A stretch of DNA of 64,000 bases, taken from assembly GCF_002093975.1 (NCBI RefSeq), contig NZ_MSZZ01000055.1, positions 1 through 64,000 on the forward strand, read 5' to 3'. Shown here in pieces: positions 11,553 through 51,702 of the stretch. How positions within the stretch are numbered: the first letter of the stretch is position 1; each line of letters starts with the position of its first letter. The stretch comes from Thermoactinospora rubra. GTDB lineage: Bacteria > Actinomycetota > Actinomycetes > Streptosporangiales > Streptosporangiaceae. The notes under the pieces were generated by a model. That model was not told where the DNA came from, did no database searches, and worked only from the letters and a program-made list of their open reading frames with translations. The position numbers and the translations under genes are program-made.

Positions 11553-11573
11553 GATGCTGATCCCTTTCCTGCG

Positions 11574-15704: not shown

Positions 15705-16018
15705 GGTGCCTCCATAAATAACCAGCCGGACATCCCCGCCGACCTGATTTCCGTGACGCAGACGATCGGCAGCGCGCAGCCGCGGAACCGATCGCTGGAA
15801 GGGCCGTCGCAGGAGCTACCGGAGGTGTTCCTGCGACGGGAGTGACTGAATTCAAGCCAGGCTCAGTGTCGGGATCCGGGCGCGGCCGAGCCAGGGCAGG
15901 CGGCGGACACTTGGAGGACAATCCGCTCGCCTCCGGGTGCGTCCGCGGAAGCGGTGTAGGAGTTCGCCGGTGACAGGTGTGGCGTCCGTGATCGGCCGGT
16001 GGGGCGGCGGCCGGGAGG
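15705..16018. other. Gene-free stretch upstream of the LamG gene
   Basis: I see no convincing gene in these 314 bp. They should contain the promoter of the leftward LamG-RHS operon; an AT-rich spot (CATAAATAACCA, near 15712-15723) lies just before the LamG start. The hairpin at 15804-15839 is the only other clear structure. Confidence 0.5.
15804..15839. terminator. Hairpin, 11-bp perfect stem
   Basis: CCGTCGCAGGA (15804-15814) pairs perfectly with TCCTGCGACGG (15829-15839), with a 14-base loop. It could end the leftward catabolic operon whose last gene stops at 16019, or be an operator for the LamG operon. Confidence 0.4.
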
Positions 16019-18234: not shown

Positions 18235-18251
18235 GACCGCCTCCTGGCTGG

Positions 18252-19442: not shown

Positions 19443-19444
19443 GA

Positions 19445-21702: not shown

Positions 21703-21724
21703 CCCGGGCTCCTGCGCGGCTCTG

Positions 21725-23409: not shown

Positions 23410-23416
23410 GGGTGCG

Positions 23417-24490
23417 TCATCCCTGGAACATCGCTTGCCAACGCCGGGTCACCTCGTCGGCGTTCTGCGCCCACCATCGCTGATCCTGCACATGGACTCC
23501 CTCGGCCACCTTGGGGTTGGTCTCGGGCAGGAACTCCTGCAAGGGCGCGGGGAGGCCGGTCAGGACGGCCTTCTTGTTGGACGGCGAGTAGGGGATGAGG
23601 CTCGTCAGCTTCGCCTGGCGTGCCGGGTCGAGCATGTAGTCGACCAGCTTCATGGCCGCCTTCGGATCGCGAACCCCCTTGGGCACGACGAGCGTGTCGT
23701 AGATCAGGAAGGCCTCGCCGTACGCGGGGGCGAAACCGGCGCCCTGCTCGGCGATGGCGGCATAGGCCCGCCCGTTCCACGCGTGGATCATCGCGACCTC
23801 GCCTGCCGTCATGAGCTGCGTCGACTCGGCGCCGCTCGCCCAGAAGACGAGGTCCTTCCTGATGGTCGCGATCTTCTTGAACGCGCGATCCAGATCCAGC
23901 GGGTACAGGGCGTCGGGCGACACCCCGTCCGCCACCAGGGCGCATTCGATGAGCGGGTTCGGCACGGCGCTGTCTCTGACGGCTCGCTTACCGGGGAACT
24001 TCGCGGTGTCGAAGAAGTCGCGGCACCCGACGGGCTTGTCGGGGCCGGGGTAGGCCTCCTTGTTGTAGTAGATCGCCGTGGAGTAGGTGAGCAACGGCGC
24101 ACCGCATTCACCCTGGATGAGCGCCGGATCGATGTCGGACAGGTCGACCAGGGTGCGGTCCAGCGGCAGGAGGGTCTTGCCGCACTCCTGGATCTCCCAG
24201 TACCCCTCCGCGGGAGTGACGTCGATGGTGACCTTGCCCGCGCCGACCATCGTCTTGATCTTCGCGTAGCTCAGGGTCGGGTCGTTGTGTACGGCGATGC
24301 CGGTGTCCTTCGCGAACGGCTTGAGGAACGCCTCATCGAGAGCGTCCAGGTACGCGCCGCCCCCGGACATGAACGTGAGGCTCCCGGCGGACTGCCGTGG
24401 CTGGTCGGCGGTGCCGCAGCCGCCGAGGACGACTGCGGACGCCAGTGTCCCCGCCAGGGCGAGACGAAGTGCGTTTCCGGTGGTTTTCAT
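23417..24490 (-). CDS. Extracellular solute-binding lipoprotein, PotD type
   Basis: A 357-residue lipoprotein. The signal peptide ends in the lipobox Val-Val-Leu-Gly-Gly-Cys (Cys about residue 25). The mature part is a PotD/spermidine-putrescine-type periplasmic-binding-protein fold, with Phe-Met-Ser-Gly-Gly-Gly-Ala-Tyr near the start and Tyr-Tyr-Asn-Lys-Glu-Ala-Tyr in the middle. Such proteins bind polyamines or other cationic or amino-acid-like small molecules. It is the first gene of the transporter part, with a GGGAGG site before the ATG. Confidence 0.9.
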   Translation of the reverse strand: MKTTGNALRLALAGTLASAVVLGGCGTADQPRQSAGSLTFMSGGGAYLDALDEAFLKPFAKDTGIAVHNDPTLSYAKIKTMVGAGKVTIDVTPAEGYWEIQECGKTLLPLDRTLVDLSDIDPALIQGECGAPLLTYSTAIYYNKEAYPGPDKPVGCRDFFDTAKFPGKRAVRDSAVPNPLIECALVADGVSPDALYPLDLDRAFKKIATIRKDLVFWASGAESTQLMTAGEVAMIHAWNGRAYAAIAEQGAGFAPAYGEAFLIYDTLVVPKGVRDPKAAMKLVDYMLDPARQAKLTSLIPYSPSNKKAVLTGLPAPLQEFLPETNPKVAEGVHVQDQRWWAQNADEVTRRWQAMFQG

Positions 24491-38937: not shown

Positions 38938-39828
38938 ATGTCTTTCGACAGGGTGACGAAGGTCCGTCTGGACAGGCTTGTGATCGGCACACAACAGGCG
39001 CGCAGCCGAGAAGTAGAGGACGACATCGCCGAGCTGGCGGACAATATTCGAGTCCACGGTCAGCTGGAGCCTATTATCGTCACCCCGTCAGAGGACAGAG
39101 ACGGATATTACGAGATCCTGGCCGGGCAACGGCGTTGGCTCGCAATGCGCAGGTTGGGCGCGCGAGACATCCTGGCTGCGATCGTCGAGGAGAGGCCGGA
39201 CGACGACGTCGCGAAGGCTCTGTCCATCAGCGAGAATCTCGTGCGACGCGATCTGTGCACGCTGGATCTCATAGACGCCTGCACCAGGCTCTATCACAAG
39301 TACGGATCAATCAAAGCCGTCGCCGAGACGTTCGGGCTTCCCTATGGCAGGGTCCGAAAATATGTCAAGTTCGACCGGCTCAGGCCCACGTTGAAAGCGC
39401 TCGTCGAGAGCGGTGAGATAGACCTCGGGGCGGCGCTCAGAATCCAGGATCATTACGGGGACAAACCCCTCGGCGATCAGGAGCTCCGGCAGATCGCGGC
39501 TGCTATGGCGGGCATGTCCGCCGCTCAGCAGATGGACTATCTTCGAACGGCCGAAGTCACAGCCCACCAGATGCCCGCGGCCGACGGCGGGAACGGGAAG
39601 CGCAGACCTGGAGCCGTGAAACAGATCATCGTCACCTTGAGCATCGCCGACCTGGAGGCGCTTCGCGCATGGGCCCGTGCGAAGAACCTCACTCAAGATC
39701 GTGCCGGGGCTCGCATCATCGCGGCCTTTCTGCGGAGTTCAGCGAACCAGTCCGCCATGGCCAACGGCCATCAGGAGCGTGGCACAGCGCTCCGGCCGGC
39801 CGATGACTTTAAGACCAACCTCGACTGA
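38938..39828 (+). CDS. ParB-like DNA-binding protein, probable cluster regulator
   Basis: A 296-residue protein. The N-terminal ParB/Srx domain (about 6-95) contains Gly-Gln-Leu-Glu-Pro-Ile-Ile-Val and Leu-Ala-Gly-Gln-Arg-Arg-Trp-Leu-Ala. Then Ser-Glu-Asn-Leu-Val-Arg-Arg-Asp-Leu (the KorB-like box) leads into a helix-turn-helix (about 130-160). The C-terminal part (about 235-285) is a short helical segment of unknown role. It is not near parA or a replication origin, so I read it as a transcription factor for the adjacent peptide cluster, not a partition protein. A GTG one codon upstream is also possible. The last codons and stop are duplicated by a 22-bp tandem repeat. Confidence 0.75.
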   Translation: MSFDRVTKVRLDRLVIGTQQARSREVEDDIAELADNIRVHGQLEPIIVTPSEDRDGYYEILAGQRRWLAMRRLGARDILAAIVEERPDDDVAKALSISENLVRRDLCTLDLIDACTRLYHKYGSIKAVAETFGLPYGRVRKYVKFDRLRPTLKALVESGEIDLGAALRIQDHYGDKPLGDQELRQIAAAMAGMSAAQQMDYLRTAEVTAHQMPAADGGNGKRRPGAVKQIIVTLSIADLEALRAWARAKNLTQDRAGARIIAAFLRSSANQSAMANGHQERGTALRPADDFKTNLD

Positions 39829-39847
39829 CTTTAAGACCAACCTCGAC
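39804..39847. repeat. 22-bp perfect tandem duplication across a stop codon
   Basis: TGACTTTAAGACCAACCTCG plus AC occurs at 39804-39825 and again at 39826-39847 without spacer. The first copy encodes the last residues of the ParB-like protein, and the TGA that ends the gene is the first triplet of the second copy. It looks like a recent slip or end-joining scar. Confidence 0.85.
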
Positions 39848-39925
39848 GAGATGTGACCGGCCGACCCGTAGGTCGCCGAAGTCCCGTGATGCCGATCCCT
39901 TGGCACCCGGGGGCGGCGTGGACCT

Positions 39926-42073
39926 TCAGGCGTCACCCCGGATCCGCGCGCTGATCCCGAGCAGCTTCTGCAGGTGGTCGGCCGCCATGAGGAGCTCCTC
40001 GTCCCTGAGGAGGAGGACCGTCCCCGACGGCATCACCACGGCCTTGGCCGTACCACGGCGGGCTTGTCCGGGCTCGTTGAGCCAGATCCCGATCGAGGCA
40101 CTGGTGGCTCCCGCCTGGCGCTGTCGCAGAGAGTACTCGCTTTGCACGTCTTCGAGGTTGGTGAAGTCCTCGATGTTCGCGAAGGGAATCTCGAGCTGCG
40201 CGATCTCAGCAAGACGGACATGCGGTTCGCCGAAGGCGCCGTCCAGCCCCAGCTTCGGGCCGAACCTCGCGAAATAGAGCAGTGTGTGCGCGGCGTCGAT
40301 CCCGCCGACGAAAGGCCGGTCATCCGCGGCCCGCTTCAGGGCGGACCGTCGTTCGTGGCCGACGTGCCCGTCGTCGTCGCCCGGCCAGTGGTCCGTCTGT
40401 CCCTGCCGGTCCCGCCAGGGCAGCCAGCGCTGGATGTCCTGGGTCGGCGGGAGCGGGAGTATCTCGGCGCCGAACTCTTCCGGGCGCTTGGCCACGATCG
40501 AGCCCGGAGTCAGCACGAACGCGCCGATCGCGGCGAGCGCCCAGTGGTCTCGGTGTTCGATGAGGAAGTCGTAGGTTTGCCGTGCCTCGTCCGGCCGCTC
40601 CGTGGGAAACCCGGTGAACCCCATCATCTGCACGCCGATCCGATGGTCTGCCAGGTGCGCCAGGATCGCCGGAACCTGGGCCAGGTCGACTCCCTTGTCG
40701 ATCAGATCCAGCACCCGCTGCGATCCCGATTCGTAACCAAATGAAATGGCCACACATCCGGCGTTCCTCAGCTGCCGTGCCATGTCCCGCTTGGGGAAGG
40801 TTCGTTCCAGCCGCAGCTCGGCGCTCCATCGAAGGTGCAGGCGGGAGCCGGCCATCGCGTCGCAGAGTTGGCGGAGGTATCGCGGCGACATGGCGTCCAC
40901 GGAGAAGTAGACGCTCCGGCCGATGTCGGCGATCTTTCGCAGATCCTCGAGCACCATCGCGACCGGCCGCTCCCGGGACGGGGAGGTCGGGCGGTCGAGA
41001 TTCAACCCGTAGTCGCAGAACGTGCATTTGTTCCAGTAGCAGCCGCGGGTGGGGCTGTAGAGGACGACGGGCTCCGGCGACCAGTAGGAGTCCCACTGCC
41101 ACACGTCATAAGCCGGTGCCGGCAGCTCCGCGACGTCCTCATAGTGGATGGGCGGCGTCTGCGGAGCCTCGCCACGCCTCAAGATTCCAGGGATCCCGCC
41201 GAAGTCACGGCCGTCTCTGACGGCGCTCAGGATGCCGCAGAACGCTGATTCGCCTTCCCCTGGGACGATGATGTCCGCATCGCGGAAGAGCTCCCAATAG
41301 TCGCCCGGCCGGCGGGCCAGCCGCACGTCGTCGCACACCTCGGTGCCGCCGAACACGATGACCGCGTCGGGAATGGCCGCTCGCGTCTGTCTCGCCAGGC
41401 GTAGCGCGGCGGGGAGCTGGCCGGTGAAGCTGACCGAGAATCCGACGACCCGCCACGGGCGTTCCCGGATGACGTCGGCGAACGGTCCGGTGATGTACGG
41501 GTCGAACGGCGCGGTCAGCCGGTCGATGAGCGCGGGATCGCAGAGGTCCTGATATGAGGACAGGTTGACGGTGCCGCCGGGCATGACGCTGAAATCGGCT
41601 ATGGACTTCGGCACGCCCTCGAGGCAGAGCAGTTCCTGCCAGAGCTTCATCACCATGACCGCCTGCCGGTAGGTGGGATAGTGATAGAAGGATTCGGCGT
41701 TTCTGAAGACCTGGATCGCTTCGCGCACTGAATCGGCGGTGAGAGTCTCGGCGGCGAGTGCCGCTCTATAAGTGAGTTCATCCAGCCGGGTAAGGCGCGA
41801 AAGCGCTTCGATGCGCGTCCTGGTCTTCGCCGCGCCGTCCAGCAGAGCGCCCACCCGGTGCGGATGCGCGAGGTGGTTGAGCGCATCGATATTCGCGTCG
41901 ACGCATCGCTCGCCGGTGAAGCCGGCTGCCCTGGCGGCCCCCACCAGATAGGAGATCGAATGGTAGGGCTGAGTGGGGTCGGTCAGCGGTGGATTGATGA
42001 GCAGATAGGGCAGGTCACTCGGCCGGCGCCTCGTCCGGCGAACCGTCGGGGTCTCGGCGATGAAGATGGCCAT
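39926..42073 (-). CDS. Cobalamin-type radical SAM enzyme, probable peptide maturase
   Basis: A 715-residue protein. An N-terminal region (about 20-300) resembles the B12-binding fold of class B radical SAM enzymes: Leu-Leu-Ile-Asn-Pro-Pro-Leu, and Val-Val-Gly-Phe-Ser-Val-Ser-Phe-Thr-Gly then Phe-Gly-Gly-Thr-Glu-Val. The radical SAM core (about 335-560) carries the cluster Cys345, Cys350, Cys353 in Arg-Gly-Cys-Tyr-Trp-Asn-Lys-Cys-Thr-Phe-Cys-Asp-Tyr. The spacing is CX4CX2C, not the usual CX3CX2C. A C-terminal domain of about 150 residues follows. Enzymes of this class methylate or cyclise unactivated carbons, often in ribosomal peptides. The start at 42073 has a GGGAGG site. It is divergent from the precursor-peptide operon. 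Confidence 0.8.
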   Translation of the reverse strand: MAIFIAETPTVRRTRRRPSDLPYLLINPPLTDPTQPYHSISYLVGAARAAGFTGERCVDANIDALNHLAHPHRVGALLDGAAKTRTRIEALSRLTRLDELTYRAALAAETLTADSVREAIQVFRNAESFYHYPTYRQAVMVMKLWQELLCLEGVPKSIADFSVMPGGTVNLSSYQDLCDPALIDRLTAPFDPYITGPFADVIRERPWRVVGFSVSFTGQLPAALRLARQTRAAIPDAVIVFGGTEVCDDVRLARRPGDYWELFRDADIIVPGEGESAFCGILSAVRDGRDFGGIPGILRRGEAPQTPPIHYEDVAELPAPAYDVWQWDSYWSPEPVVLYSPTRGCYWNKCTFCDYGLNLDRPTSPSRERPVAMVLEDLRKIADIGRSVYFSVDAMSPRYLRQLCDAMAGSRLHLRWSAELRLERTFPKRDMARQLRNAGCVAISFGYESGSQRVLDLIDKGVDLAQVPAILAHLADHRIGVQMMGFTGFPTERPDEARQTYDFLIEHRDHWALAAIGAFVLTPGSIVAKRPEEFGAEILPLPPTQDIQRWLPWRDRQGQTDHWPGDDDGHVGHERRSALKRAADDRPFVGGIDAAHTLLYFARFGPKLGLDGAFGEPHVRLAEIAQLEIPFANIEDFTNLEDVQSEYSLRQRQAGATSASIGIWLNEPGQARRGTAKAVVMPSGTVLLLRDEELLMAADHLQKLLGISARIRGDA

Positions 42074-42160
42074 CCCTGCCTCCCAGGCACACAGGACGCT
42101 TCCGCAATGCCGGCAGCCTACCCCGGCGCCCTGCCGGCGAAAGCAGTCCGGAGCCGGCCG

Positions 42161-42211
42161 TTCTTAAAATTCAGAAGCTTCTTCTTAAGAACATCCTCCG
42201 CATTTTAAGAA
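42161..42211. promoter_or_regulatory. Triple TTCTTAA operator array in the divergent cluster promoter
   Basis: An AT-rich island holds TTCTTAAAAT (42161-42170), the palindrome TTCTTAAGAA (42182-42191) and ATTTTAAGAA (42202-42211). The outer two are exact inverted complements, and their symmetry axis falls on the middle palindrome. Site centres are 21 and 20 bp apart, two helical turns. A further palindrome AGAAGCTTCT lies at 42173-42182. The array sits between the radical SAM gene (leftward) and the precursor-peptide operon (rightward), upstream of plausible promoter elements near 42227-42262. It is a strong candidate for a regulator binding site. Confidence 0.7.
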
Positions 42212-42303
42212 TCCGGCCGAGTACTGTTCTGGACGACCGTGACGCTCACGCTTACCGTGGGTTTCGTTCGATAGTCCGGAAAGACCAAAGAGAGGAGTCA
42301 GGA

Positions 42304-42489
42304 ATGTCCGACGACCCCCTTGCGCCCCTTCGCGCGGCAGGATTGGACAGGCTTCCCGAAGCGCAGCGAGCGGTCTTCGAACAGCTGACCCCGGAGGAAA
42401 TGGCCGTCGTGAGCTCCATCCAAGAACGTCTGAACGCCGCGGCGCCGGACGTCGAAGGGCAGGGCAACTTGATCAATTCCCTCTGCTGA
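42304..42489 (+). CDS. 61-residue RiPP precursor-like peptide with C-terminal Cys
   Basis: The peptide starts behind GAGAGGAG. Residues 3-50 form a helical, acidic, leader-like part (Pro-Leu-Ala-Pro-Leu-Arg-Ala-Ala-Gly; Gln-Leu-Thr-Pro-Glu-Glu-Met-Ala-Val-Val-Ser-Ser-Ile-Gln-Glu-Arg-Leu; Ala-Pro-Asp-Val-Glu-Gly). The last ten residues, Gly-Gln-Gly-Asn-Leu-Ile-Asn-Ser-Leu-Cys, end in the only Cys of the protein, at the very C-terminus. The leader part matches the small protein at 45838-46023. From memory it resembles what databases call the aroma-sacti cluster domain; I cannot verify that. A radical SAM enzyme and a Cys-decarboxylase-type flavoprotein follow, so I read this as their substrate. 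Confidence 0.75.
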   Translation: MSDDPLAPLRAAGLDRLPEAQRAVFEQLTPEEMAVVSSIQERLNAAAPDVEGQGNLINSLC

Positions 42490-42558
42490 TCTATAGGCAC
42501 CGGTCCGCCGGGTGGTCCGGCGGACCGGGCCACCCGGATGCCGGATGAGGAGGAAATC

Positions 42559-43911
42559 ATGGCAGAGAAGATAGGCCGCTACTTCGTCATCAGCGACAAC
42601 ATCTATACGGATGGCGAAGGGGTTCGGGTCCAACTGGTCTACGCGACGCGAACGGCCACGCTGATGTACGTCATACCGGAGGTCGCGGACGCCCTCCGCA
42701 CGGGCCGGCTCGATGCCATCTCCCCCGGCACGCGCGCCGCCTTGAGAGATTCTGAGGTTGTGGTGCCCGACGATCAGGACGAGTTAGCGGATGTGCTGGA
42801 CCGCAGCAGATCGGCCGCGCTGGACAGATCGCTGGTCAACTTCATTCTGCTCCCCACTTCGTATTGCAACATGGGCTGCACTTATTGCGGGCAGGAACAC
42901 GTGCGCGGCGGGCTGTCCGCGGATCACCGTGATCGTGTCCGGGCGCGGGTCCTGCGTGCGGTGCGGTTGCCGACGACGCGGCAAGCGCGCATCGACTGGT
43001 TCGGCTCCGAGCCGATGATGGGGTACGCCGTCATCCGAGACCTCGCCAAGGACTTCGTGCGGGTCGCCGACGAGGAGGGCGTGGAATACATCTCCGAGAT
43101 GACGACCAACGGGTCCTTGCTGAATCAGCGGAATCTGGAGGTGCTCATCAAGGAGTGCAGGGTCCGGAAGTTTCATATAACCCTGGACGGCCCCCCAGAC
43201 GTCCATGACGAGCACCGGCCGCTGAAGAGCGGTGGCCGGTCCTTCTGGAAGATCGTCCGCACGGTCAGGGAAGCACTCGACAACCCCGACTACCGGCATG
43301 CGACGTTCGTCTTCAGGACCAACGTCGACGTGCGCAACCAGGAAAGCATTCCCCGCTATATCGAACTGATGGCACACCTCGGCTTCAATCAGCCGAATGT
43401 CCAGTTCCTGCTGGCCCCCGTGCACCCGTGGGGGAACGATGTCTCGGCGATCGAGCTGGAGGGCAAGGACTACGCCGAGCGGGAACTCGGCTGGCTGAGG
43501 CTGATGCACGAGCACGGGCTCCCGTTCATGCGGATGCCCACGGTGCCGCAACGGGTGACGTGCTCGGCGGTCAAGGCCACCGCCGAGCTGATCAGCGGCA
43601 CCGGGAACATCTTCTCGTGCACCGACCATCCGCTCGTGCCCGAGGCCGAGCAGACGTCGGCACTCGGGCACATCGGCCAGGACGACCTTCCGGTCTTCCG
43701 GCCGGCCGGAGAGTTCGATGGCTGGTACGACGAGGTGGAGCAGGGCAAGTCCTGGTGCAAGGGCTGCGTCTTCCTGCCCACGTGCGGAGGCTCGTGCCCC
43801 AAGGCCTGGCACGAAGGCCGCCTTCCGTGCCCAAGCTACAAGCACAATGCCCAAGGCCGCATGGACCTGGCCGCCGCACGTCTCGGGCTGCGACCGGTCG
43901 GGGCGCCGTGA
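42559..43911 (+). CDS. Radical SAM/SPASM peptide maturase
   Basis: A 450-residue enzyme. The N-terminal 90 residues could be a peptide-recognition segment. The radical SAM core has Cys103-Asn-Met-Gly-Cys107-Thr-Tyr-Cys110 (CX3CX2C) and Phe-Gly-Ser-Glu-Pro (SAM-binding region, about 151-155). The C-terminal SPASM-type region holds many Cys residues (Val-Thr-Cys-Ser, Phe-Ser-Cys-Thr, Trp-Cys-Lys-Gly-Cys, Thr-Cys-Gly-Gly-Ser-Cys-Pro, Leu-Pro-Cys-Pro) for auxiliary Fe-S clusters. Such enzymes make thioether or C-C cross-links in peptides. The start at 42559 follows GAGGAGG. Codon 76 is TTA (42784-42786), rare in this DNA and a mark of bldA-type control. Its stop overlaps the next gene. Confidence 0.85.
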   Translation: MAEKIGRYFVISDNIYTDGEGVRVQLVYATRTATLMYVIPEVADALRTGRLDAISPGTRAALRDSEVVVPDDQDELADVLDRSRSAALDRSLVNFILLPTSYCNMGCTYCGQEHVRGGLSADHRDRVRARVLRAVRLPTTRQARIDWFGSEPMMGYAVIRDLAKDFVRVADEEGVEYISEMTTNGSLLNQRNLEVLIKECRVRKFHITLDGPPDVHDEHRPLKSGGRSFWKIVRTVREALDNPDYRHATFVFRTNVDVRNQESIPRYIELMAHLGFNQPNVQFLLAPVHPWGNDVSAIELEGKDYAERELGWLRLMHEHGLPFMRMPTVPQRVTCSAVKATAELISGTGNIFSCTDHPLVPEAEQTSALGHIGQDDLPVFRPAGEFDGWYDEVEQGKSWCKGCVFLPTCGGSCPKAWHEGRLPCPSYKHNAQGRMDLAAARLGLRPVGAP

Positions 43912-44513
43912 GCGCGACGGGTCCGGATCCGGCGGCGGCCGACCCGGCGACCGCGACGCACAAGCTGCTCATCGGCGCGTGCGGCGCGGCGGACGTGATG
44001 AGCCTTCCGAACTATCTTCTCGCCTTGCGCACACGAATGCCCGCGCTCCGTGTCCGCGTCATCATGACGGCGACCGCGGTGAAGTTCCTGCCGGCGCGGA
44101 CAGTGCGGTTGATCGGCGAGGCCGTCTTCTGCGAAGGCGAGGACAACTTCGACCCGGGCCACGCGAAGCTGGCCCAGTGGGCCGATCACTTCATCGTGCT
44201 GCCGGCGACCGCGAACGTGCTCGCGCAGGCCGCACAGGGGTTCTCGGGAAGCCTGCTGACGGCGGCACTGCTCGCATACCCGGGACGGGCGATCTTCTTT
44301 CCCTGCATGAACGCGGAGATGTGGCACAAACCTGCCGTCCAGCGCAACGTCGCCCAGCTGACGGCGGACGGGCACCACATCGCCGGGCCCGTCATGGCGC
44401 AGTGCTGGGAGATATCCACGGCCGAGTACAAGACAGGGCCGTGTCTCCCGTCGCCGTCTCAGGTCGCCGGGATCGTCGAGGACGTCGTCCGCCACCGCGG
44501 AACCCGCTCATGA
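43908..44513 (+). CDS. HFCD-family flavoprotein, probable peptidyl-Cys decarboxylase
   Basis: A 201-residue flavoprotein of the homo-oligomeric flavin-containing Cys decarboxylase family (EpiD, MrsD, TvaF, Dfp/CoaC). It has Gly-Ala-Cys-Gly-Ala-Ala-Asp (FMN phosphate loop, about 23-29), and His85 in His-Ala-Lys-Leu-Ala-Gln-Trp-Ala-Asp as the catalytic His. Pro-Ala-Thr-Ala-Asn (99-103) is the PASANT motif, and Pro-Cys-Met-Asn-Ala-Glu-Met-Trp (132-139) the PXMNXXMW motif. Family members in RiPP clusters oxidatively decarboxylate a C-terminal Cys to an aminoenethiol. The co-encoded peptide at 42304 ends in Cys, which fits. GTG start with a 4-bp overlap with the SPASM gene. It is not the CoaBC enzyme, since the synthetase half is absent. 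Confidence 0.85.
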   Translation: MSATGPDPAAADPATATHKLLIGACGAADVMSLPNYLLALRTRMPALRVRVIMTATAVKFLPARTVRLIGEAVFCEGEDNFDPGHAKLAQWADHFIVLPATANVLAQAAQGFSGSLLTAALLAYPGRAIFFPCMNAEMWHKPAVQRNVAQLTADGHHIAGPVMAQCWEISTAEYKTGPCLPSPSQVAGIVEDVVRHRGTRS

Positions 44514-44530
44514 AGGGAGAAACCGGACCG

Positions 44531-45829
44531 ATGAGCCGGACAGCCTTCGCAAAGGTCAAGGCCCTGGCCGTATCGGGACCGATGACCGTTCGAGGGTTCT
44601 GGCGGCTGCTCATCGGTCAGCTCGCCTCGAGTGTCGGCGACCTCTGCTACGCGGTCGCCCTGCCGTGGCTGGTCCTGTCCTCCGGAGGCGGTCCCGGCCT
44701 GCTCGGTGTGGTGCTGGCCTGCTTCGGAGTGAGCCGGGCGCTGGCGATCCCGGCCGGCGGGATCCTCGCGGACCGCTTCGGCCCCCGCACGGTCATGCTG
44801 GTGACCGACGCCGTCAGGTTCGGCCTCATCATGGTGCTCGGAACCCTGGCCTCCAGCATGCCGCCCACGTTCGCCGTGCTCGCGCCCATCTCGGCCGCGC
44901 TGGGGATCTGCGGCGGGGTCTTCGTCCCCGCGTCGTTCGCCCTCCTCCCCACCGTCCTGCCCGAGAAGGACCTGGCCGCGGGCAACTCGATGTCCTCCGT
45001 CGCGACCCAGCTCGGCACCCTTCTCGGGCCGGCGCTGGGCGGGATCCTGATCGCCGGCCTCGGCCAGGTTCCGGCCTTGTTCGCAGTCGCGAGCGCCTAT
45101 CTCGTCTCGGCCGCCGCCCTGCTGGCTTTCCGCCCGCCGAACGCCGATCCGGCGGGGGAGGCAGCCGTGGCGAGCGGCGCCGTGACGTTCCGTGCCGTAC
45201 TGCTTCGCGGGCGTTTCCTCCAGGTCGTCCTGGTCGCGGCTCTGATCGGCAATGCCGTCTACGCGGGTGCGGTGGAAGTGGCTCTGCCCACGCTGGCCCA
45301 TCGCGACTTCGGAGCAGCCGGATACGGCATCCTCCTCACCGGGCTCGGTGCCGGCATGATCATCGGTGCTCTGCTGGCCCGCTGGACGGTGCCGCGACTG
45401 CGGGTCGGGTATGTGGTCATGCTCCTCGGTCTCACCATGGGCGCCTCGGTCGCCGCCGTGCCCTTCGCCGGCGGCCTGGCCGGCGCGCTCGTGTGCATCA
45501 TCGTGTTCGCCGTCGCCAACGGCTGGTCAGGGATCGTCGTCATGACGATGGTGCAGTTGTGGGCTCCGCGTCACCTGCTGGCCCGCGTGATGAGCGTCAT
45601 GCTGCTGGCGATGTCGGGCACCTTCCCGCTGTCCGTCGCGGTGGCCGGCTGGGGCGTGGAGCGCTTCGGCGTGGCCACGTTCTTCCTGCTGGCCGGTTGC
45701 TCAATGGCGGCCGGCATCCTGTGGGCGATCACCCAGCCCGCCTTCAGAAACTTCCGTCCCGGCGACCAGTTCGCCGGGAGCGCCGGCGCGGTCGCCGGCG
45801 GCACAAGGCTCGATGAGGAAAGAAGGTGA
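44531..45829 (+). CDS. MFS exporter of the peptide cluster
   Basis: A 432-residue membrane protein with twelve predicted helices. It carries the loop 2-3 motif Gly-Gly-Ile-Leu-Ala-Asp-Arg-Phe-Gly-Pro-Arg, and Gln-Leu-Gly-Thr-Leu-Leu-Gly-Pro-Ala-Leu-Gly-Gly in helix 5, typical of drug/H+ antiporters. An in-frame ATG at 44510, overlapping the flavoprotein stop, is an alternative start; the ATG at 44531 has an AAGGGAG site. Placed inside the operon, it probably exports the modified peptide and gives self-resistance. Confidence 0.85.
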   Translation: MSRTAFAKVKALAVSGPMTVRGFWRLLIGQLASSVGDLCYAVALPWLVLSSGGGPGLLGVVLACFGVSRALAIPAGGILADRFGPRTVMLVTDAVRFGLIMVLGTLASSMPPTFAVLAPISAALGICGGVFVPASFALLPTVLPEKDLAAGNSMSSVATQLGTLLGPALGGILIAGLGQVPALFAVASAYLVSAAALLAFRPPNADPAGEAAVASGAVTFRAVLLRGRFLQVVLVAALIGNAVYAGAVEVALPTLAHRDFGAAGYGILLTGLGAGMIIGALLARWTVPRLRVGYVVMLLGLTMGASVAAVPFAGGLAGALVCIIVFAVANGWSGIVVMTMVQLWAPRHLLARVMSVMLLAMSGTFPLSVAVAGWGVERFGVATFFLLAGCSMAAGILWAITQPAFRNFRPGDQFAGSAGAVAGGTRLDEERR

Positions 45830-45837
45830 AGCCAGCC

Positions 45838-46023
45838 ATGGGATTCGATGCTCTGTCGGCACTCCGGGCCAGCGGTCAGTGGGTGGACCTGCTGAGCACG
45901 CGGCAGCGGGACGTCCTCGGACGGTTGACCGAGGAAGAGGTGGAGATCCTCGTACGGGTCAAGCGCATGCTGGATGAGGTGGCGCCGGACGTACAGGGAC
46001 ACCACGAATTCAAGGTGCTGTGA
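45838..46023 (+). CDS. Second small cluster protein, Cys-free paralogue of the precursor peptide
   Basis: A 61-residue protein that aligns end to end with the peptide at 42304-42489. Ala-Leu-Ser-Ala-Leu-Arg-Ala-Ser-Gly, Arg-Leu-Thr-Glu-Glu-Glu-Val-Glu-Ile-Leu, Arg-Met-Leu-Asp-Glu-Val and Ala-Pro-Asp-Val-Gln-Gly all correspond. It lacks any Cys and ends His-His-Glu-Phe-Lys-Val-Leu. It is either a second precursor, a free-standing leader-like scaffold, or an immunity or regulatory peptide. A GTG at 45826, overlapping the MFS stop, could add four residues; the alignment favours the ATG at 45838. Confidence 0.75.
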   Translation: MGFDALSALRASGQWVDLLSTRQRDVLGRLTEEEVEILVRVKRMLDEVAPDVQGHHEFKVL

Positions 46024-46024
46024 C

Positions 46025-49000
46025 GTGGGCGGGGACGCCGGCGCCGAGCAGTCGGCATGCAGCGCGTGCGGTGCGCGGCTGACAGCCCACGCCCGGTTCT
46101 GCTCCACGTGCGGAGCCGTGGCGCGGGCCGCCGACACCGGTCCGGAATCCCGCAAGAACGTCGCCGTTCTCTTCGTCGACCTGGTGGATTCAACGAAGCT
46201 GGGCGAGCAGCTCGATCCCGAGCTGCTGCGCAACGTGCTCTACCGATATTACGAAGCCTGCAGCGAGCACATCACCGAACACGGCGGGCTGATCGAGAAG
46301 TACATCGGCGACGCCATCATGGCCGTCTTCGGCGTTCCGGTCACGCACGAGGACGACGCGCTGCGGGCGGTACGGGCCGCCTGGTCCGTGGTCGCGGCTG
46401 TCCGGAAGCTGAGCGACGGCATGCTGCCGATGCAGATCAGACTCGACGTTCATTGCGGCGTCAGCTCAGGGGAGGCCGTGGTCATCGCAAGCCCCGGGGC
46501 GCAGTTACGGATCGTCGGTGACACGGTGAACACCGCCGCACGGCTCCAGAGCGCCGCGCAGCCCGGCCAAATCCTGGTGAACGCCGAGGTGGCACAGCTC
46601 GTGCGCGGCCGTGCCGGGCTGGCGGAACTCCCGCCGCTCGTCCTCAAGGGAAAGGCCGAGCCCGAGCGCGTGTGGCGGGTCACGTCCGTGACAGTGGAGT
46701 CCCCGGCCGTCCGGGCTCCCATGATCGGGCGGGCCGAAGAGCTCCGGCGGCTGCTCGCCTCCTATGGCCAGGTGGTGGCCGACGCCAGGGGCCGCTGTCT
46801 TCTCGTGCACGGCGAGCCCGGCGTGGGCAAGACACGGCTGATGCTGGAGTTCGCCGCCCGGCGGGAGGTCGGGCAGGCCCTGGTGCTGACCGGCTCGTGC
46901 CAGCCGTACGGCAGGGACATCACGTTCCATCCTCTGATCTCCATGCTCCACGACTCCGTGCCCGGCGGCTGGGCTCATATCCGGCAGGCGCTCGGCGCGA
47001 GCGAGAGCGGCCGACGGGCATACCGGACCCTGACGGCCGTCTGCGGCGGTGAGTCTCCGAAAGGCGGTCCGCCGGTCGGCGTGGAAGAGATCGGGTGGGC
47101 GGCCACGCACCTGTTCAGGGCACTGGCCGCACGTCATCCCCTGGTTCTGGTCTGGGAGGACCTGCACTGGGCAGAGGGGGTGTTCCTGGGGTTGATCAAG
47201 ATTTTGGCGCGGGAGTTGTCGGATTTGCCCGTCCTCATCGTCTGGGTCGCCAGGGACGAGTTGCTCGAGAACCATCCGCACCTGGGCATCGATCAAGCTT
47301 CCCGGGTCCGGGTCGCACCGCTCAGCCCGGCCGAAACGGTGCAGCTCATAGACACCCTGGCGGTGGGGGAAGCCGAGGTGGCAGGCCATGCACGGAGCTC
47401 GGCGACGGCAGAGATCGTCGAACTCAGCGCGGGCAACCCGTTGTTCGTCGCGGCGATGATCGACGCGCTGGCTGACCAGGGGTCGGCCACGTCGACGCCT
47501 CCGCCGACGATCTCCGCCCTGCTGCGCGCCCGGATCGACGCCCTTCCCGCGCCGGAGCTGCGCACCCTGCAATGGGCCGCCGTGTGCGGCCAGGAGTTCG
47601 ACGTCGACCGGCTCTTGATCCTCGCCGCGCGGGACGGCCTGGACCGGGAGGAAGTGATCGGCGCGCTCGAGCGCTTGGTGCGGCGAGACTTCGTCCAGCC
47701 CCTCGGGGCAGGGCGCCTGCGCGCGCAAACCCTGATCCGCGACACCTGCTATGCGATGACTGCCAAGGCGTTGCGGGCGGAGGCGCATGCGCTGCTGGCG
47801 GACAGGACGCCACCGACGGAGACGATGTACCACGCGGAACGGGCCAGCCTGTTGTTCGGCGAGGTCGCCCCCGGCGATCCGCGCCTGCCTGCCTTGTCGG
47901 CGAAGGCGGTGAAGCTCCTCGTCCAGGAAGGGACGACGGCGTTGCATCGCCGTGACGCGAAGGCCGCGGGATCGCTGTTCGGGCGGGCACTCACCCTGCA
48001 CACCGGGCGTGGCCGCCGGTTCGCCGACATCACCGTACGGCTGAGCGAGGCTCTCCTGGCACAGGGTGAGGGTGATCGGGCGTTGCGGGTGCTCGAGGAG
48101 GGCTTGCGGGAAACAGACACGGCCGGTCGCATGCCCCTGACGTTGCAGCGCGACATCATCCGCTTCCGCCTGGGGCATCTCAGCCTGGAAACGGCGCCGG
48201 CGAATCTGGCACGCCATGAGTCCGACCTCCGCCAAGCCGCAGACGATGACATGAACTGGTGCCTGCTCCACCAGTTCGCGGCTTTCGTGGAGTTCAGCGC
48301 CGACCAGGTGGGCAGGGCCGAATCGGAATTCAGGAAGGCGCTGGCCCGCGCACGGCTGCTCGACGAGCACTGGATCGAGAACCGGCTCTCCAGCGCCCTT
48401 TGCGAACTCGTCCAATGGTCCCCCACGACCGTCGCCGACGGGTTGGAGCTGTGCGACGAGCTGCTGCGGCGGTTCGAAGCCGATCGGCTGCTCCTGATCC
48501 CTGTCCTGGCCACCCAGGCGCGCCTCCTCGCCCTTGCCGGAAAGGTGAACGAGGCCCGTGCCGCGTTGTCCGCCGCGCGGGAAACCGCCTCGGCCTTGCA
48601 CGCGGCCTTCCCGGAGATCGCGATCAGCCAGTCGGAGGCGATCCTGCTCTCGCTGACCGGTGACAACGTCCTCGCGAGCAGGCGGTTCGCCGAGGCGGCG
48701 GCGATGCTGCGAAACCTGGGCCACATTCAGCCCGCTCTGACCCTCGAGATCTACGCGGTGCGCGAGATTCTCCGCGCGGGACACCATGAGACAGCCCGCG
48801 CGGCGTTCGCGAACCTGAGCGCGGCAGAGGGCGACGCCGGCCTCGTCGCCCGTGCCCGCACCTGGCTGCACCTGCTCCAGGCCCATTTCGCCTGCCTGGA
48901 CGGACATCCGGACGAGGGCCACGCCCTGGCCCGGCGCGCGCTCGACGCGATGGCCGGCGACGATCCCTGCCTGCTTGGTGACGCCTGGCATGAGTTCGCG

Positions 49001-49144
49001 GTCATCGCGCGGACGACCGGGCGAACCTCCGAGGCCGCGCTCGCCGCGGCCCGGGCCGAAGCCTACTACCTGGCCAAAGGCGCCAGCCTGCCGGCGAGAG
49101 CCGTACGCCGCTGGGCCGCGACCGACGACGGAGACGAAAAGTGA
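46025..49144 (+). CDS. Zinc-ribbon/class III cyclase/AAA ATPase/TPR regulator
   Basis: A 1039-residue protein. Residues 10-30 form a double CxxC zinc ribbon (Cys12, 15, 26, 29). Residues 45-210 are a class III nucleotidyl cyclase domain with both metal Asp residues (Leu-Phe-Val-Asp-Leu-Val-Asp-Ser and Ile-Gly-Asp-Ala-Ile-Met-Ala-Val-Phe). Residues about 235-600 are an AAA/NTPase with Walker A Gly-Glu-Pro-Gly-Val-Gly-Lys-Thr. The rest is TPR-like helices. Other such cyclase-ATPase fusions are signalling proteins. Inside this operon it may couple peptide production to a nucleotide signal. GTG start one base after the preceding stop region. It contains a TTA codon at 46505-46507. It ends in a GTGA overlap with the protease gene. 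Confidence 0.8.
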   Translation: MGGDAGAEQSACSACGARLTAHARFCSTCGAVARAADTGPESRKNVAVLFVDLVDSTKLGEQLDPELLRNVLYRYYEACSEHITEHGGLIEKYIGDAIMAVFGVPVTHEDDALRAVRAAWSVVAAVRKLSDGMLPMQIRLDVHCGVSSGEAVVIASPGAQLRIVGDTVNTAARLQSAAQPGQILVNAEVAQLVRGRAGLAELPPLVLKGKAEPERVWRVTSVTVESPAVRAPMIGRAEELRRLLASYGQVVADARGRCLLVHGEPGVGKTRLMLEFAARREVGQALVLTGSCQPYGRDITFHPLISMLHDSVPGGWAHIRQALGASESGRRAYRTLTAVCGGESPKGGPPVGVEEIGWAATHLFRALAARHPLVLVWEDLHWAEGVFLGLIKILARELSDLPVLIVWVARDELLENHPHLGIDQASRVRVAPLSPAETVQLIDTLAVGEAEVAGHARSSATAEIVELSAGNPLFVAAMIDALADQGSATSTPPPTISALLRARIDALPAPELRTLQWAAVCGQEFDVDRLLILAARDGLDREEVIGALERLVRRDFVQPLGAGRLRAQTLIRDTCYAMTAKALRAEAHALLADRTPPTETMYHAERASLLFGEVAPGDPRLPALSAKAVKLLVQEGTTALHRRDAKAAGSLFGRALTLHTGRGRRFADITVRLSEALLAQGEGDRALRVLEEGLRETDTAGRMPLTLQRDIIRFRLGHLSLETAPANLARHESDLRQAADDDMNWCLLHQFAAFVEFSADQVGRAESEFRKALARARLLDEHWIENRLSSALCELVQWSPTTVADGLELCDELLRRFEADRLLLIPVLATQARLLALAGKVNEARAALSAARETASALHAAFPEIAISQSEAILLSLTGDNVLASRRFAEAAAMLRNLGHIQPALTLEIYAVREILRAGHHETARAAFANLSAAEGDAGLVARARTWLHLLQAHFACLDGHPDEGHALARRALDAMAGDDPCLLGDAWHEFAVIARTTGRTSEAALAAARAEAYYLAKGASLPARAVRRWAATDDGDEK

Positions 49145-50058
49145 CCCTGCCCTGGCGTGGCTCGGTGTCGGAGCACTTCCCCGGCGTACCCGCCTGGGGC
49201 GCGCCCACCTCGCGACGGCCGCTCCCCGACTTCCCCGCGACTCACCTGGCGGGGATCACACCGGAATGGGCGTGGGGCGGAGCCGACGGGAGCGGAATCC
49301 GGGTCTGTATCGTCGACAGCGGAGTCGACGGCACTCATCCGCTCGTCGCCCCCGTCGACCAGGCGATGACCGTCGCCTGGGAGAGATCGGACGAGCCGGC
49401 CGTCGTGCCGGCCGAGGCGATCGACACGGCCGGGCACGGCACCGCCTGTGCCGGCATCATCCGGTCGATGGCCCCCAACGCCTCGCTGTCGTCGATGCGG
49501 GTGTTGACCGACTCCATCACCGGAAGCGGCCAGGCCCTGCTGGCGGGTCTCAGCTGGGCGATCGACTCGGGATTCGACCTGATCAACCTGAGCCTGTCGA
49601 CCACGAAGCTCCTGCTCCTGCCCCGGCTCCATGACCTGGCCGATCAGGCCTACTTCCGGCGCTCGGTCCTCGTCGTGTCCGCGCACAACCTGCCGGTGCA
49701 CAGCTTCCCGTGGCCCTTCGCGTCGGTGATCTCAGTCGCCAGCCACGACCAGCCCGACCCCTTCCTCCACTACTACAACCCCGGCCCACCGGTGGATTTC
49801 CTTGCCAGAGGTCTGGCGGTCCCCGTCGCCTCGCCCGGAGGAGGGCGGACCCGCAATACCGGCAACAGCTTCGCCACGCCCCACATCACGGGTCTGTGTG
49901 CCTTGATCTTGAGCAAGCACCGCTGGCTCACGCCGTTCCAACTCAAGTCCGTGCTGTACCAAACCGCGCGCAACGTAAGACGCGATGGAGCTCGCCATGC
50001 CCCTGCAGAACTACTCCCTGCCGAATTCCCGTCCGGACCGGCAGGCGCCACTGACTGA
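49141..50058 (+). CDS. Subtilisin-like serine peptidase (S8) without signal peptide
   Basis: A 305-residue subtilase. The triad is complete: Asp59 (Cys-Ile-Val-Asp-Ser-Gly), His99 (Gly-His-Gly-Thr-Ala-Cys-Ala-Gly) and Ser243 (Gly-Asn-Ser-Phe-Ala-Thr-Pro-His). The oxyanion Asn is probably Asn183. No signal peptide or long propeptide is visible, so it should act in the cytosol, which suits removal of a leader from a peptide precursor. It is coupled to the genes on both sides by overlap. Confidence 0.85.
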   Translation: MTLPWRGSVSEHFPGVPAWGAPTSRRPLPDFPATHLAGITPEWAWGGADGSGIRVCIVDSGVDGTHPLVAPVDQAMTVAWERSDEPAVVPAEAIDTAGHGTACAGIIRSMAPNASLSSMRVLTDSITGSGQALLAGLSWAIDSGFDLINLSLSTTKLLLLPRLHDLADQAYFRRSVLVVSAHNLPVHSFPWPFASVISVASHDQPDPFLHYYNPGPPVDFLARGLAVPVASPGGGRTRNTGNSFATPHITGLCALILSKHRWLTPFQLKSVLYQTARNVRRDGARHAPAELLPAEFPSGPAGATD

Positions 50059-50653
50059 ACGGCAGCTGCTGCATTCGATAGTCCAGCTCGCCCGCCACGT
50101 CTTCGGCGCCGCGGCATCGTCGATCTTCCTGATCGACGGCGACACCGGTGACCTGGTTTTCGAAGCGGTCGCCGGCCAGGGCGACGCGCACCTGCCCGGC
50201 ACCCGCTTCCCTGCGGGGACCGGCATCGCCGGTTGGGTCGCGATGAGCGGCCAGGCGGTCTGCATCGACGATCTCTCGGGAAGCACCCACTTCTCCAGGT
50301 CCTCCGCGGAATCAACGGGATACGTGCCGACCAGCCTCATGGCCGCGCCCCTGACCAGGGGTGGCGATTGCGTCGGGGTCCTGGAGATCCTCGATCCTTC
50401 GGTCCCCTCCCGCAGTGAGCTGGCCGACCTCGATGTGCTGGGGCTTCTCGCCGTCCAGGCCGCCATCGGCCTGGAGATCCTGATCCGGGCCCGCCATGGG
50501 GGCACCGGAGCGCCGCTGAGCGAAGAGAACGCGCTGCTGCTCGACCGCATCGGGCATGGCATGAGGACAGCGGACGAACCCGCCATGGCCTTGGCGCTCA
50601 CCCTGCTGACGGCGGCGGAAGAGGTGCTGATCGGCGGACGGAAGGAGCCGTGA
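49997..50653 (+). CDS. GAF-domain protein
   Basis: A 218-residue protein with one GAF domain (about 20-160): Ala-Ala-Ala-Ser-Ser-Ile-Phe-Leu-Ile-Asp, Pro-Ala-Gly-Thr-Gly-Ile-Ala-Gly-Trp-Val-Ala, and Leu-Met-Ala-Ala-Pro-Leu. A C-terminal helical tail follows. GAF domains bind cyclic nucleotides or other small ligands, so this could read the product of the cyclase encoded two genes earlier. It starts inside the protease gene (62-bp overlap); the ATG at 49997 has a GGAG site. Confidence 0.8.
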   Translation: MPLQNYSLPNSRPDRQAPLTERQLLHSIVQLARHVFGAAASSIFLIDGDTGDLVFEAVAGQGDAHLPGTRFPAGTGIAGWVAMSGQAVCIDDLSGSTHFSRSSAESTGYVPTSLMAAPLTRGGDCVGVLEILDPSVPSRSELADLDVLGLLAVQAAIGLEILIRARHGGTGAPLSEENALLLDRIGHGMRTADEPAMALALTLLTAAEEVLIGGRKEP

Positions 50654-51702
50654 CAGCGCTCCTGAAGCAGTACACCTTCCGGCTGACCCCTCCCGCGGAC
50701 GACCAGGTCCGCCCGCCCCCTTCGGGAGACTCGGCGGCCGACGGATGCGTCGTCTTCTTCACCAGGCGAGCCGATCCGGAGGTGTCGGAGCTGACCAGGC
50801 TCCTCACCGTCCTCGGCGTGCCGTCCCGCCGGATCGACGCCGACAGCCTCAGCTCGATCGAGCTCGACCTGGACACTCCAGGGATCCTGCGGATCGACGG
50901 GGACCGGGTACGGATCACAGCCTGCTGGACACGCAGGTTCTGGCCCTCGGCCATGGCGGTTCCGCGGACCTCCGCCGATGTCCTTCGCAGGGACTCCTGG
51001 CTCGCCCTCGTCCGGCAGGCGCCGACGCTGGCCTCCGTCGCCTGGCCGGGTCCCAGGCTCGGGCTCCTGCAGCAGCTCACCGACGCCGTCAGAGTCGGCA
51101 TCCGCGTCCCCCCGACGGTCGTGAGCACCGACCCCGTCGAAGCGGCCCGGCGGTTCTCCGGCGACATGCTGATCGTCAAGACGCTCGGCATGCATTTCGT
51201 CGAGAGGGTTCCTGGCACCCTCGAGGGGATCTTCCCATGCGTCCGGTCGCGGGCCGACATCCAGAGCCGCGACAGATTGCCGGAAACCTCGCCACTGGTC
51301 ATTCAGGAGTATGTACGGCACGAAGCGGAGTACCGCGTCTACTTCATCCAGGGGAAGCTGATCACCTTGGAGGTGCGGAAGCCTTCACCTGATGCCGTCT
51401 GGCGGGACCAGGAATCGGTCCAGGTGCGCGAGACGAAGGACGTTCCGGAGGTGGCGGCGCTCGTCACCTGCCTGGCGGCGCGTTGGAAGCTCCATTTCGG
51501 CGCGTTCGACGTGCTGCTGGCCGACGACGGCCCGGTGTTCCTGGAGGTGAACTTCGACGGCGACTGGCGGTGGTACGAACGGCGCGCGGGGGTGCGGTCG
51601 ATCAGCAGGACGATCGCCTGCGCGATACGCGACCGGCATCGCCACGCCGGAGGCCGTGTCGACAGGTCAGGTGCCGGGCTGCTGCCGCTGATGACCGGGT
51701 GA
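50650..51702 (+). CDS. ATP-grasp ligase, MvdD/RimK-like
   Basis: A 350-residue protein. An N-terminal pre-ATP-grasp part (about 30-130, Val-Val-Phe-Phe-Thr-Arg-Arg-Ala-Asp) is followed by an ATP-grasp fold with Leu-Ile-Val-Lys-Thr-Leu-Gly (Lys for ATP). Next are Ile-Gln-Glu-Tyr-Val-Arg-His-Glu-Ala-Glu-Tyr-Arg-Val-Tyr and Phe-Asp-Val-Leu-Leu-Ala-Asp-Asp-Gly, then Phe-Leu-Glu-Val-Asn-Phe-Asp-Gly-Asp-Trp (metal Glu and Asn). MvdD-type ligases form omega-ester or omega-amide links in RiPPs such as microviridins. It could instead tag a peptide or act in immunity. GTG start with a GTGA overlap. Last gene of the operon. Confidence 0.8.
   Translation: MTALLKQYTFRLTPPADDQVRPPPSGDSAADGCVVFFTRRADPEVSELTRLLTVLGVPSRRIDADSLSSIELDLDTPGILRIDGDRVRITACWTRRFWPSAMAVPRTSADVLRRDSWLALVRQAPTLASVAWPGPRLGLLQQLTDAVRVGIRVPPTVVSTDPVEAARRFSGDMLIVKTLGMHFVERVPGTLEGIFPCVRSRADIQSRDRLPETSPLVIQEYVRHEAEYRVYFIQGKLITLEVRKPSPDAVWRDQESVQVRETKDVPEVAALVTCLAARWKLHFGAFDVLLADDGPVFLEVNFDGDWRWYERRAGVRSISRTIACAIRDRHRHAGGRVDRSGAGLLPLMTG

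Follow-up and report, generated by a model that had tools for sequence, protein, structure and literature searches.

A 64,000-nucleotide stretch of the Thermoactinospora rubra genome (contig NZ_MSZZ01000055.1, hereafter the window) carries, at 38938-51702, an eleven-gene locus that appears to encode a ribosomally synthesized and post-translationally modified peptide (RiPP) and its maturation enzymes. Computed gene content, recurrence, an N-x-x-C rule in the precursor tails, the kinship of an HFCD flavoprotein and a predicted fold point to a cluster in which a SPASM radical S-adenosylmethionine (SAM) enzyme would join the C-terminal cysteine, Cys(0), to Asn(-3), while the HFCD would decarboxylate the same cysteine, giving an aminovinyl-cysteine (AviCys)-like ring without dehydrated Ser or Thr. 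We consider this reading slightly on the probable side. That it also represents new RiPP chemistry, with an enethiol made by the HFCD being coupled by the SPASM enzyme to Asn(-3) so that aminovinyl-cysteine forms without dehydroamino acids, is a more tentative claim, somewhat short of probable.

Precursor tails end in N-x-x-C beside SPASM and HFCD genes

The first gene on the plus strand, pepA1 (42304-42489), encodes a 61-residue precursor with an NF045560-type leader and the tail EGQ-GNLINSLC. According to the window sequence and the peptides found with a leader profile, Asn58 (codon 42475-42477) is the invariant Asn(-3) of N-x-x-C, and Cys61 (codon 42484-42486) is the invariant C-terminal Cys, the presumed substrate of the HFCD and donor of the thioether. 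Next come the gene for the SPASM enzyme (42559-43911, alternative start 42538), with a CNMGCTYC motif, seven SPASM cysteines and an N-terminal fold like a RiPP recognition element (RRE), and that for the HFCD (43908-44513), a presumed peptidyl-cysteine decarboxylase.

An open reading frame (ORF) before the SPASM gene ended N-x-x-C-stop in 26 of 26 HFCD-positive loci with at least 300 bp of upstream sequence, that is, in the 27 distinct HFCD-positive loci minus L042, which has no upstream DNA. The terminal motif was present in a single one (L134) of the 36 loci that have no HFCD gene nearby, and in 7 of 2600 dinucleotide shuffles. Asn(-3) was encoded by two codons, and position -2 varied (V 13, C 6, T 2, S 1 and N 1) in 23 tails that were chosen by the pattern; independent support comes from the search with the leader profile alone, in which the tail was ignored and 23 of 23 pepA1 peptides ended N-x-x-C.

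The rule was found with three unrelated leaders. In addition to the NF045560 type, it held for mini-precursors of 22-32 residues in L051-L053, which end VNVFC, VNIAC and VNIAC and matched no NCBIfam family, and for the precursor of L162 (..PLNGNCKSCPVNGIC, ending KSCPVNGIC), found after the rule had been formed, where the SPASM and HFCD proteins share 28% and 37% identity with those of the window. From the sequences, N-x-x-C-COOH beside a SPASM and HFCD pair may thus be the genomic signature of a decarboxylated Asn-Cys ring. This distant pair and its precursor (..LNGNCKSCPVNGIC) lie at L162:6346-11358; the next gene there encodes a repeat protein that gives the impression of a hemopexin (no database match), and a further gene product is weakly like the EACC1-associated caspase (26.6 of 140 bits).

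A contig scan with the window SPASM protein returned 24 related loci, 23 with an adjoining HFCD gene, and genome searches added three distinct HFCD-positive loci (L103/L143, L129 and L131), so that 27 distinct loci, including the window, carry the pair. Two further loci (L128 and L130) match L039 and L040 by contig place and were excluded from the counts. All ten components were present in 17 of the 27 (window, L031, L032, L034-L038, L040, L043-L047, L049, L054 and L143); L041, L042 and L048 are truncated at contig ends, L129 and L131 are known with short flanks, L033 and L039 are partial, and L051-L053 form a minimal type with no NF045560 leader and no set of pepA2, cyclase/NTPase, subtilase and GAF genes within the stretch examined. 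Genes were called with a home-made gene caller. Gene order took three forms. Nonomuraea, Sphaerisporangium and Actinoallomurus have a single operon from which the B12 gene diverges, Streptomyces and Streptacidiphilus split the genes over two divergent operons, and L143 has them in one run. That the content stays the same while the order changes speaks for a single functional set, and the co-occurrence of the peptide with both radical SAM genes and the flavoprotein, on which the earlier note on this DNA had staked its proposal of a RiPP cluster, is conserved in the genomes of other genera.

The cluster type is uncommon. At a profile threshold of E <=1e-60, the SPASM subfamily was detected in at least 1 of the 394 genomes searched in the class, namely that of the window, and in at least 8 of 297 of the family, as well as in at least 27 of 300 in the family of the L053 genome and at least 13 of 394 in that of the L052 genome. 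All are lower bounds, since scoring went no further than the fourth or fifth candidate in each genome. A reverse search of 388 genomes with the HFCD gave 13 hits, the best six of which adjoin a SPASM gene of the window subfamily, and one of which (L160/L162) adjoins the distant SPASM gene with 28% identity.

Loci without an HFCD gene were defined by the absence of a tblastn match in the stretch examined, about 1.5 kb per side for most of the 36, with longer flanks of about 7 to 20 kb covered for L050, L081 and the loci of L093, L104, L108, L132, L133 and L134. In 19 of 36, a small ORF upstream carried N-x-x-C within 25 residues of its end (18 internal, such as NFACAFS, VNGGCCEN, NFGCGVC and NGVCGAGC, and 1 terminal), and each of 16 control patterns occurred in 6 of 36 or fewer. 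Asn and Cys at fixed spacing in the HFCD-positive loci and in about half of those lacking the gene argue that the two residues are jointly the substrate of the SPASM enzyme. In trees that sampled 19 of the 27 HFCD-positive and 23 of the 36 HFCD-lacking loci plus an outgroup, the HFCD-positive SPASM enzymes formed one group (support 92/88). The economical reading of these sequences is that the motif belongs to the SPASM enzyme, which would join an Asn and a Cys three residues apart, and that one subgroup combines a terminal Cys with an HFCD. In L111, L113, L116 and L120, all HFCD-lacking, the precursors start with a hydrophobic, signal-peptide-like segment and end ..NFACAF[SN].

HFCD kinship, SPASM fold and a proposed ring

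In a phmmer search against the PDB, the window HFCD matched MrsD first (E 7.6e-35), then an MrsD fusion, 7cfu, which we take to be the thioviridamide HFCD, and EpiD, followed by CoaBC and phosphopantothenoylcysteine decarboxylases. The His in GHAKLAQWAD and the PxMNxxMW motif are invariant in 23 of 23 aligned HFCDs. We considered whether the protein is a stray CoaC and rejected this, since MrsD is nearest, the housekeeping CoaBC is located elsewhere in the genome (G000:C3), and the gene adjoins Cys-terminal precursors. The RiPP cluster with a Cys-terminal precursor and a Cys decarboxylase that had been proposed from the letters alone is thus supported.

An AlphaFold2 model of the SPASM enzyme (18 sequences; predicted local distance difference test score (pLDDT) 85.7, predicted template modelling score (pTM) 0.85) shows, within residues 9-88, three strands together with helices 40-48, 56-64 and 75-88. 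This is the layout of an RRE, and the N-terminus is predicted to be RRE-like on the basis of this topology. The model matches 5why/5wgg, which carry out thioether bond formation in sactipeptides, with template modelling (TM) scores of 0.61-0.65. By sequence, the best NCBIfam match is TIGR04463, a family of radical SAM/SPASM RiPP maturases, and the window and L162 enzymes differ from it in scoring 191.8 and 192.7 bits, below the cut-off of 525.

A putative pathway follows from these parts. PepA1 would be the substrate, bound by the SPASM enzyme through its leader and the RRE-like fold, and the SPASM enzyme would form a thioether from the sulphur of Cys(0) to Asn(-3). The HFCD would oxidatively decarboxylate the C-terminal Cys. 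Chemistry of this kind requires a free thiol, which suggests that decarboxylation probably comes first, or that both enzymes act as a pair. The product would be a four-residue C-terminal ring closed on Asn by a radical, not by Michael addition to dehydroalanine (Dha) or dehydrobutyrine (Dhb). The B12 enzyme may methylate a carbon, the subtilase may cut the leader near the EGQ motif, and the protein of the major facilitator superfamily (MFS) may export the product, with a second peptide, a cyclase/NTPase and an ATP-grasp protein serving as a module for control or for a second peptide product. From the reactions and their order to the cleavage site, transport and regulation, each step is putative.

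In known AviCys routes, an enethiol adds to Dha or Dhb derived from Ser or Thr (PMC9415263). The last 12 residues contain no Ser or Thr in 10 of 14 Streptomycetaceae tails. Ten cluster proteins were scanned with Pfam and NCBIfam, and among these ten no LanB, LanM, LanKC, LanL or other dehydratase was found, nor any LanC, YcaO, kinase homologue or PqqD-like protein. The absence of Ser and Thr from those tails and of a dehydratase from the scanned proteins calls for another means of closure, for which the SPASM enzyme is the obvious candidate. A radical SAM-formed Asn-Cys S-Cbeta thioether has been published (PMC11002830).

A second peptide and a shared set of accessory genes

Both small peptides of the locus matched NF045560, the "aroma-sacti cluster domain" (cut-off 30), at 68.6 bits for pepA1 and 74.1 bits for pepA2, with E values of 7.8e-21 and 3.9e-19 between them, so this leader type was already familiar to annotators. 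The earlier note had described one 61-residue peptide ending in Cys; pepA1 does end in Cys, but a paralogue of the same length, pepA2 (45838-46023, plus strand), had been overlooked. Its tail is [DE]-hydrophobic-K-hydrophobic-hydrophobic. PepA2 contains no Cys and was rejected as a substrate of the HFCD. In the tree of NF045560 domains, in which A1 and A2 labels were set by the tail, window-type pepA1 is separate (17 rows, 98/91), and pepA2 formed one group in 22% of bootstrap trees (56 columns).

The pepA2-type peptide adjoins the cyclase/NTPase gene in window-type loci that retain that stretch. The same peptide and cyclase also occur in the CxC-type loci L065, L066, L068, L069 and L071-L074, in L067 and L075, and in L145, where the SPASM enzyme has no nearby HFCD. 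StsB was named by the scan in L069 only (896.1 bits, cut-off 625). In L033 (Sphaerisporangium melleum, 9689-16251) pepA2, the cyclase/NTPase and the ATP-grasp gene are jointly missing, while pepA1, SPASM, HFCD, MFS, subtilase and GAF genes are retained, which suggests that the three cooperate and that the core chemistry can do without them. They may serve in regulation or in making a second product.

A second product could be a graspetide-like peptide, with the [DE]xK tail of pepA2 joined by the ATP-grasp enzyme, so that the locus would make two peptides or a peptide pair. This would be compatible with the proposed Asn-Cys ring, and we judge it a minority possibility, though one to be taken seriously. 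Each of the 20 window-type pepA2 peptides that the profile detected has the Lys and, two residues before it, the acid, the tails reading [DE]-[LIVF]-K-[LV]-[LM], and the joint absence in L033 fits as well. The nearest solved relatives of the ATP-grasp protein are 5ig8, AMdnB and CdnC; 5ig8, 7m4s and 7mgv are presumably graspetide ligases. Against TIGR04187 this protein scored 74.4 of 350 bits. Speaking against a graspetide, the tail is retained in L065, L066, L068, L069, L071 and L074, where the stretch examined gave no ATP-grasp match, the L067 tail has no acid, and lactam formation across D-x-K would give a very small ring.

Aroma-sacti loci with other enzymes were also seen. At L077:3615-12921, the precursor of one such locus ends ..AYASGGWCW; the locus also encodes a split LanB-like pair and a radical SAM enzyme whose nearest match is YydG (51 of 300 bits), together with the same cyclase, subtilase and GAF genes. 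L080, whose proteins were outside the domain scan, has the same layout. At L070:3971-10754, four tandem aroma-sacti peptides ending SFW, LFW, GLW and GLW lie near a B12 radical SAM enzyme.

Alternative readings of the tail

Several observations weigh against the decarboxylated Asn-Cys ring. Among NCBIfam models, CoaBC fits the HFCD best (79.5 of 219.7 bits), and CypD, the RiPP model, matches weakly (16.7 of 215). TigE (8vpo), which we take to do other chemistry, is fourth by fold match to the SPASM model. No N-x-x-C ORF was present upstream in 17 of the 36 HFCD-lacking loci, and 6 of the 13 HFCD hits (36-44% identity) have no SPASM gene within about 1.5 kb. The L134 precursor ends VNGSC-COOH with no HFCD gene within 20 kb, so a terminal N-x-x-C does not require decarboxylation. 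Near-identical Streptomyces loci and the single SPASM group mean that the 26 loci are not independent events, and they contain 19 distinct tails. We know of no precedent for radical SAM capture of an enethiol, and the reading rests on genes and models, with product and reactions putative.

Both enzymes might act on the tail without sharing a ring, the SPASM enzyme modifying Asn in some other way and the Cys ending as a free enethiol, an aldehyde or a metal ligand. Enzymes of related fold presumably do varied chemistry, L134 suggests that an HFCD is not needed for the SPASM enzyme to work, and on chemical grounds an HFCD is unlikely to act on a sulphur that already carries an alkyl group. The fixed spacing of Asn and Cys in loci with and without the HFCD gene speaks instead for a joint SPASM substrate, and we consider separate action rather unlikely.

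Less probable still is a sactipeptide of the StsA/StsB type, with sulphur linked to an alpha carbon and the HFCD as a late tailoring enzyme. The StsA/StsB/StsC sactipeptides (Precord 2023, as cited in PMC12710340) are like the window locus in the NF045560 leader domain and in the set of pepA2, cyclase/NTPase, subtilase and GAF genes common to CxC loci, with StsB confirmed in L069. Their core, however, is CxC and that of the window N-x-x-C, and the StsA CxC model NF045559 (cut-off 75) was not reached by the two window peptides (23.9 and 31.1 bits). The StsB model NF045574 (cut-off 625) was not among the best 25 of 51 families for the window SPASM enzyme, for which TIGR04463 was the top hit. The window has a different SPASM enzyme, which contains an RRE-like fold itself; no PqqD-like gene was seen, and an HFCD and a B12 radical SAM enzyme are added.

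Ordinary AviCys formation, by Michael addition to a dehydrated Ser or Thr with the dehydratase encoded elsewhere, was dropped as very unlikely on tail composition: the window tail has Ser at -2, and in some relatives Thr occurs at -2, -4 or -5, or Ser at -6, but 0 of 23 aroma-type tails have Ser or Thr at -3, most Streptomycetaceae tails lack both residues, as noted above, and the scanned proteins include no dehydratase.

YcaO genes in the nearest relatives

The earlier note had treated the lack of YcaO as a trait of the class. This does not hold for the five nearest relatives (L031-L034 and L054), in which the ATP-grasp or GAF gene is followed by one for a YcaO protein with 68-75% identity to that of L031 (L031:19109-20401, L033:14947-16251 and the equivalent position in L032, L034 and L054). 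YcaO absence should therefore not define the class. The L031 protein belongs to the SagD family, over the cut-off, and a leader-binding partner typical of thiazole/oxazole-modified microcins (TOMM) scored over its cut-off in L033 and L034, the two that were scanned, with homologues in the other three.

Every tail in the five YcaO-positive loci has a Cys or Thr at -2, which is cyclodehydratable, as if an azoline were formed there. Of the 16 aroma-type loci whose tails were listed and in which the stretch examined has no YcaO gene, two have such a residue at -2 (Ser in the window and Thr in L047). No YcaO remnant was found in the window. A YcaO like that of the relatives encoded elsewhere in the window genome was considered and rejected, as the YcaO genes of this genome share no more than 30% identity with that of L031. 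Judged by these comparisons, the window locus resembles a pared-down version of a more complex pathway.

Organization of the window locus

All eleven genes are open frames at the coordinates given earlier for them (38938-51702), and the operon with a small peptide first and a divergent B12 radical SAM gene is in place, with the domains confirmed. Nine plus-strand genes (42304-51702) follow the divergent gene (39926-42073, minus strand), whose B12-binding radical SAM product is closest to RiPP C-methyltransferases (TIGR03975, 97.6 of 281.85 bits). Beyond it, a flank gene (38938-39828, plus strand) encodes a ParB-like protein by domain search; homologues flank L031, L032 and L033, and it may be a regulator, with membership in the cluster doubtful.

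Downstream of the HFCD gene, an MFS transporter and presumed exporter (44531-45829, alternative start 44510; Pfam and NCBIfam) precedes pepA2. It is followed by a class III nucleotide cyclase with AAA NTPase and TPR domains (46025-49144), a presumed regulator with a zinc ribbon below the cut-off, and by a subtilase (49141-50058), the presumed leader protease, with catalytic D/H/S invariant in 17 of 17 aligned sequences. The plus-strand run closes with a GAF-domain protein (50000-50653, alternative start 49985; Pfam) and an ATP-grasp ligase (50650-51702) that bears a distant resemblance to RiPP ATP-grasp maturases, below NCBIfam cut-offs.

The description of 4-bp overlaps at most junctions was slightly generous. 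They are certain at three of eight junctions (SPASM/HFCD, cyclase/subtilase and GAF/ATP-grasp) and arise at two more, HFCD/MFS and MFS/pepA2, if the earlier start is taken. At the remaining junctions, pepA1 and SPASM are separated by 48 or 69 bp, pepA2 and the cyclase by 1 bp, and the subtilase and GAF genes overlap by 59 or 74 bp, depending on the start. The reported lack of LanB, LanM, LanC and YcaO was borne out for the ten scanned cluster proteins.

Elsewhere in the window, an HTH/NB-ARC/TPR regulator (53140-55512, minus strand) is 39-41% identical to large cluster-adjacent proteins in L031 and L032. A 2025-residue RHS-repeat protein adjoins a 1376-residue laminin-G-domain protein (5475-15704, minus strand), and an operon-like run (16019-24490, minus strand) encodes an asparaginase, M20 and M24 peptidases, a pyridoxal phosphate enzyme and an ABC transporter with a binding protein.

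Relation to known peptides and implications

The locus shares features with two groups of ring-containing peptides. Like AviCys peptides (mersacidin and epidermin with LanD, cypemycin, and thioviridamide with an HFCD and an inactive kinase), it has an HFCD nearest MrsD, with the active-site-type His and PxMNxxMW, and a precursor with a C-terminal Cys. The i to i+3 ring spacing of epidermin and cypemycin is that of N-x-x-C. It differs in having Asn at the acceptor position and a radical SAM enzyme, with no dehydratase or kinase among the scanned proteins. The ten scanned proteins likewise set the cluster apart from lanthipeptides, and the lack of YcaO in the window sets it apart from thioamitides and azole peptides.

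The Asn-Cys ranthipeptide of Streptococcus, which Caruso is said to have reported in 2019, reportedly belongs to an NxxC group with an N-x-x-C motif, and in the window, too, a SPASM radical SAM enzyme is encoded beside a presumed substrate with N-x-x-C. To our knowledge, no HFCD is part of that system. Radical SAM joining of Cys to Asn is common to the Streptococcus orisratti/porci system (PMC11002830) and the reaction suggested here; the setting there is quorum sensing, and the linkage in the window is putative.

An open-access literature search found no description of a RiPP with a SPASM and HFCD pair and none for "aroma-sacti", with subscription papers mostly outside it and absence from print therefore unproven. 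The idea of a class outside the known ones is plausible by way of the N-x-x-C rule, which had gone unnoticed, although the leader was already modelled and half of the operon is shared with other loci. The locus is plausibly a relative of the radical SAM thioether RiPPs, with a real chance of a new route to aminovinyl-cysteine.

These comparisons suggest that an actinobacterial RiPP family is perhaps built of two halves, a recurring chassis of cyclase, protease and second peptide and a set of exchangeable maturases such as StsB, a split LanB-like pair, a B12 radical SAM enzyme or the SPASM and HFCD pair. If the proposed ring is correct, SPASM, HFCD and N-x-x-C-COOH together would provide a simple search signature, and AviCys-type C-termini would arise by a second, radical route without dehydration of Ser or Thr, which would open them to a wider range of cores.

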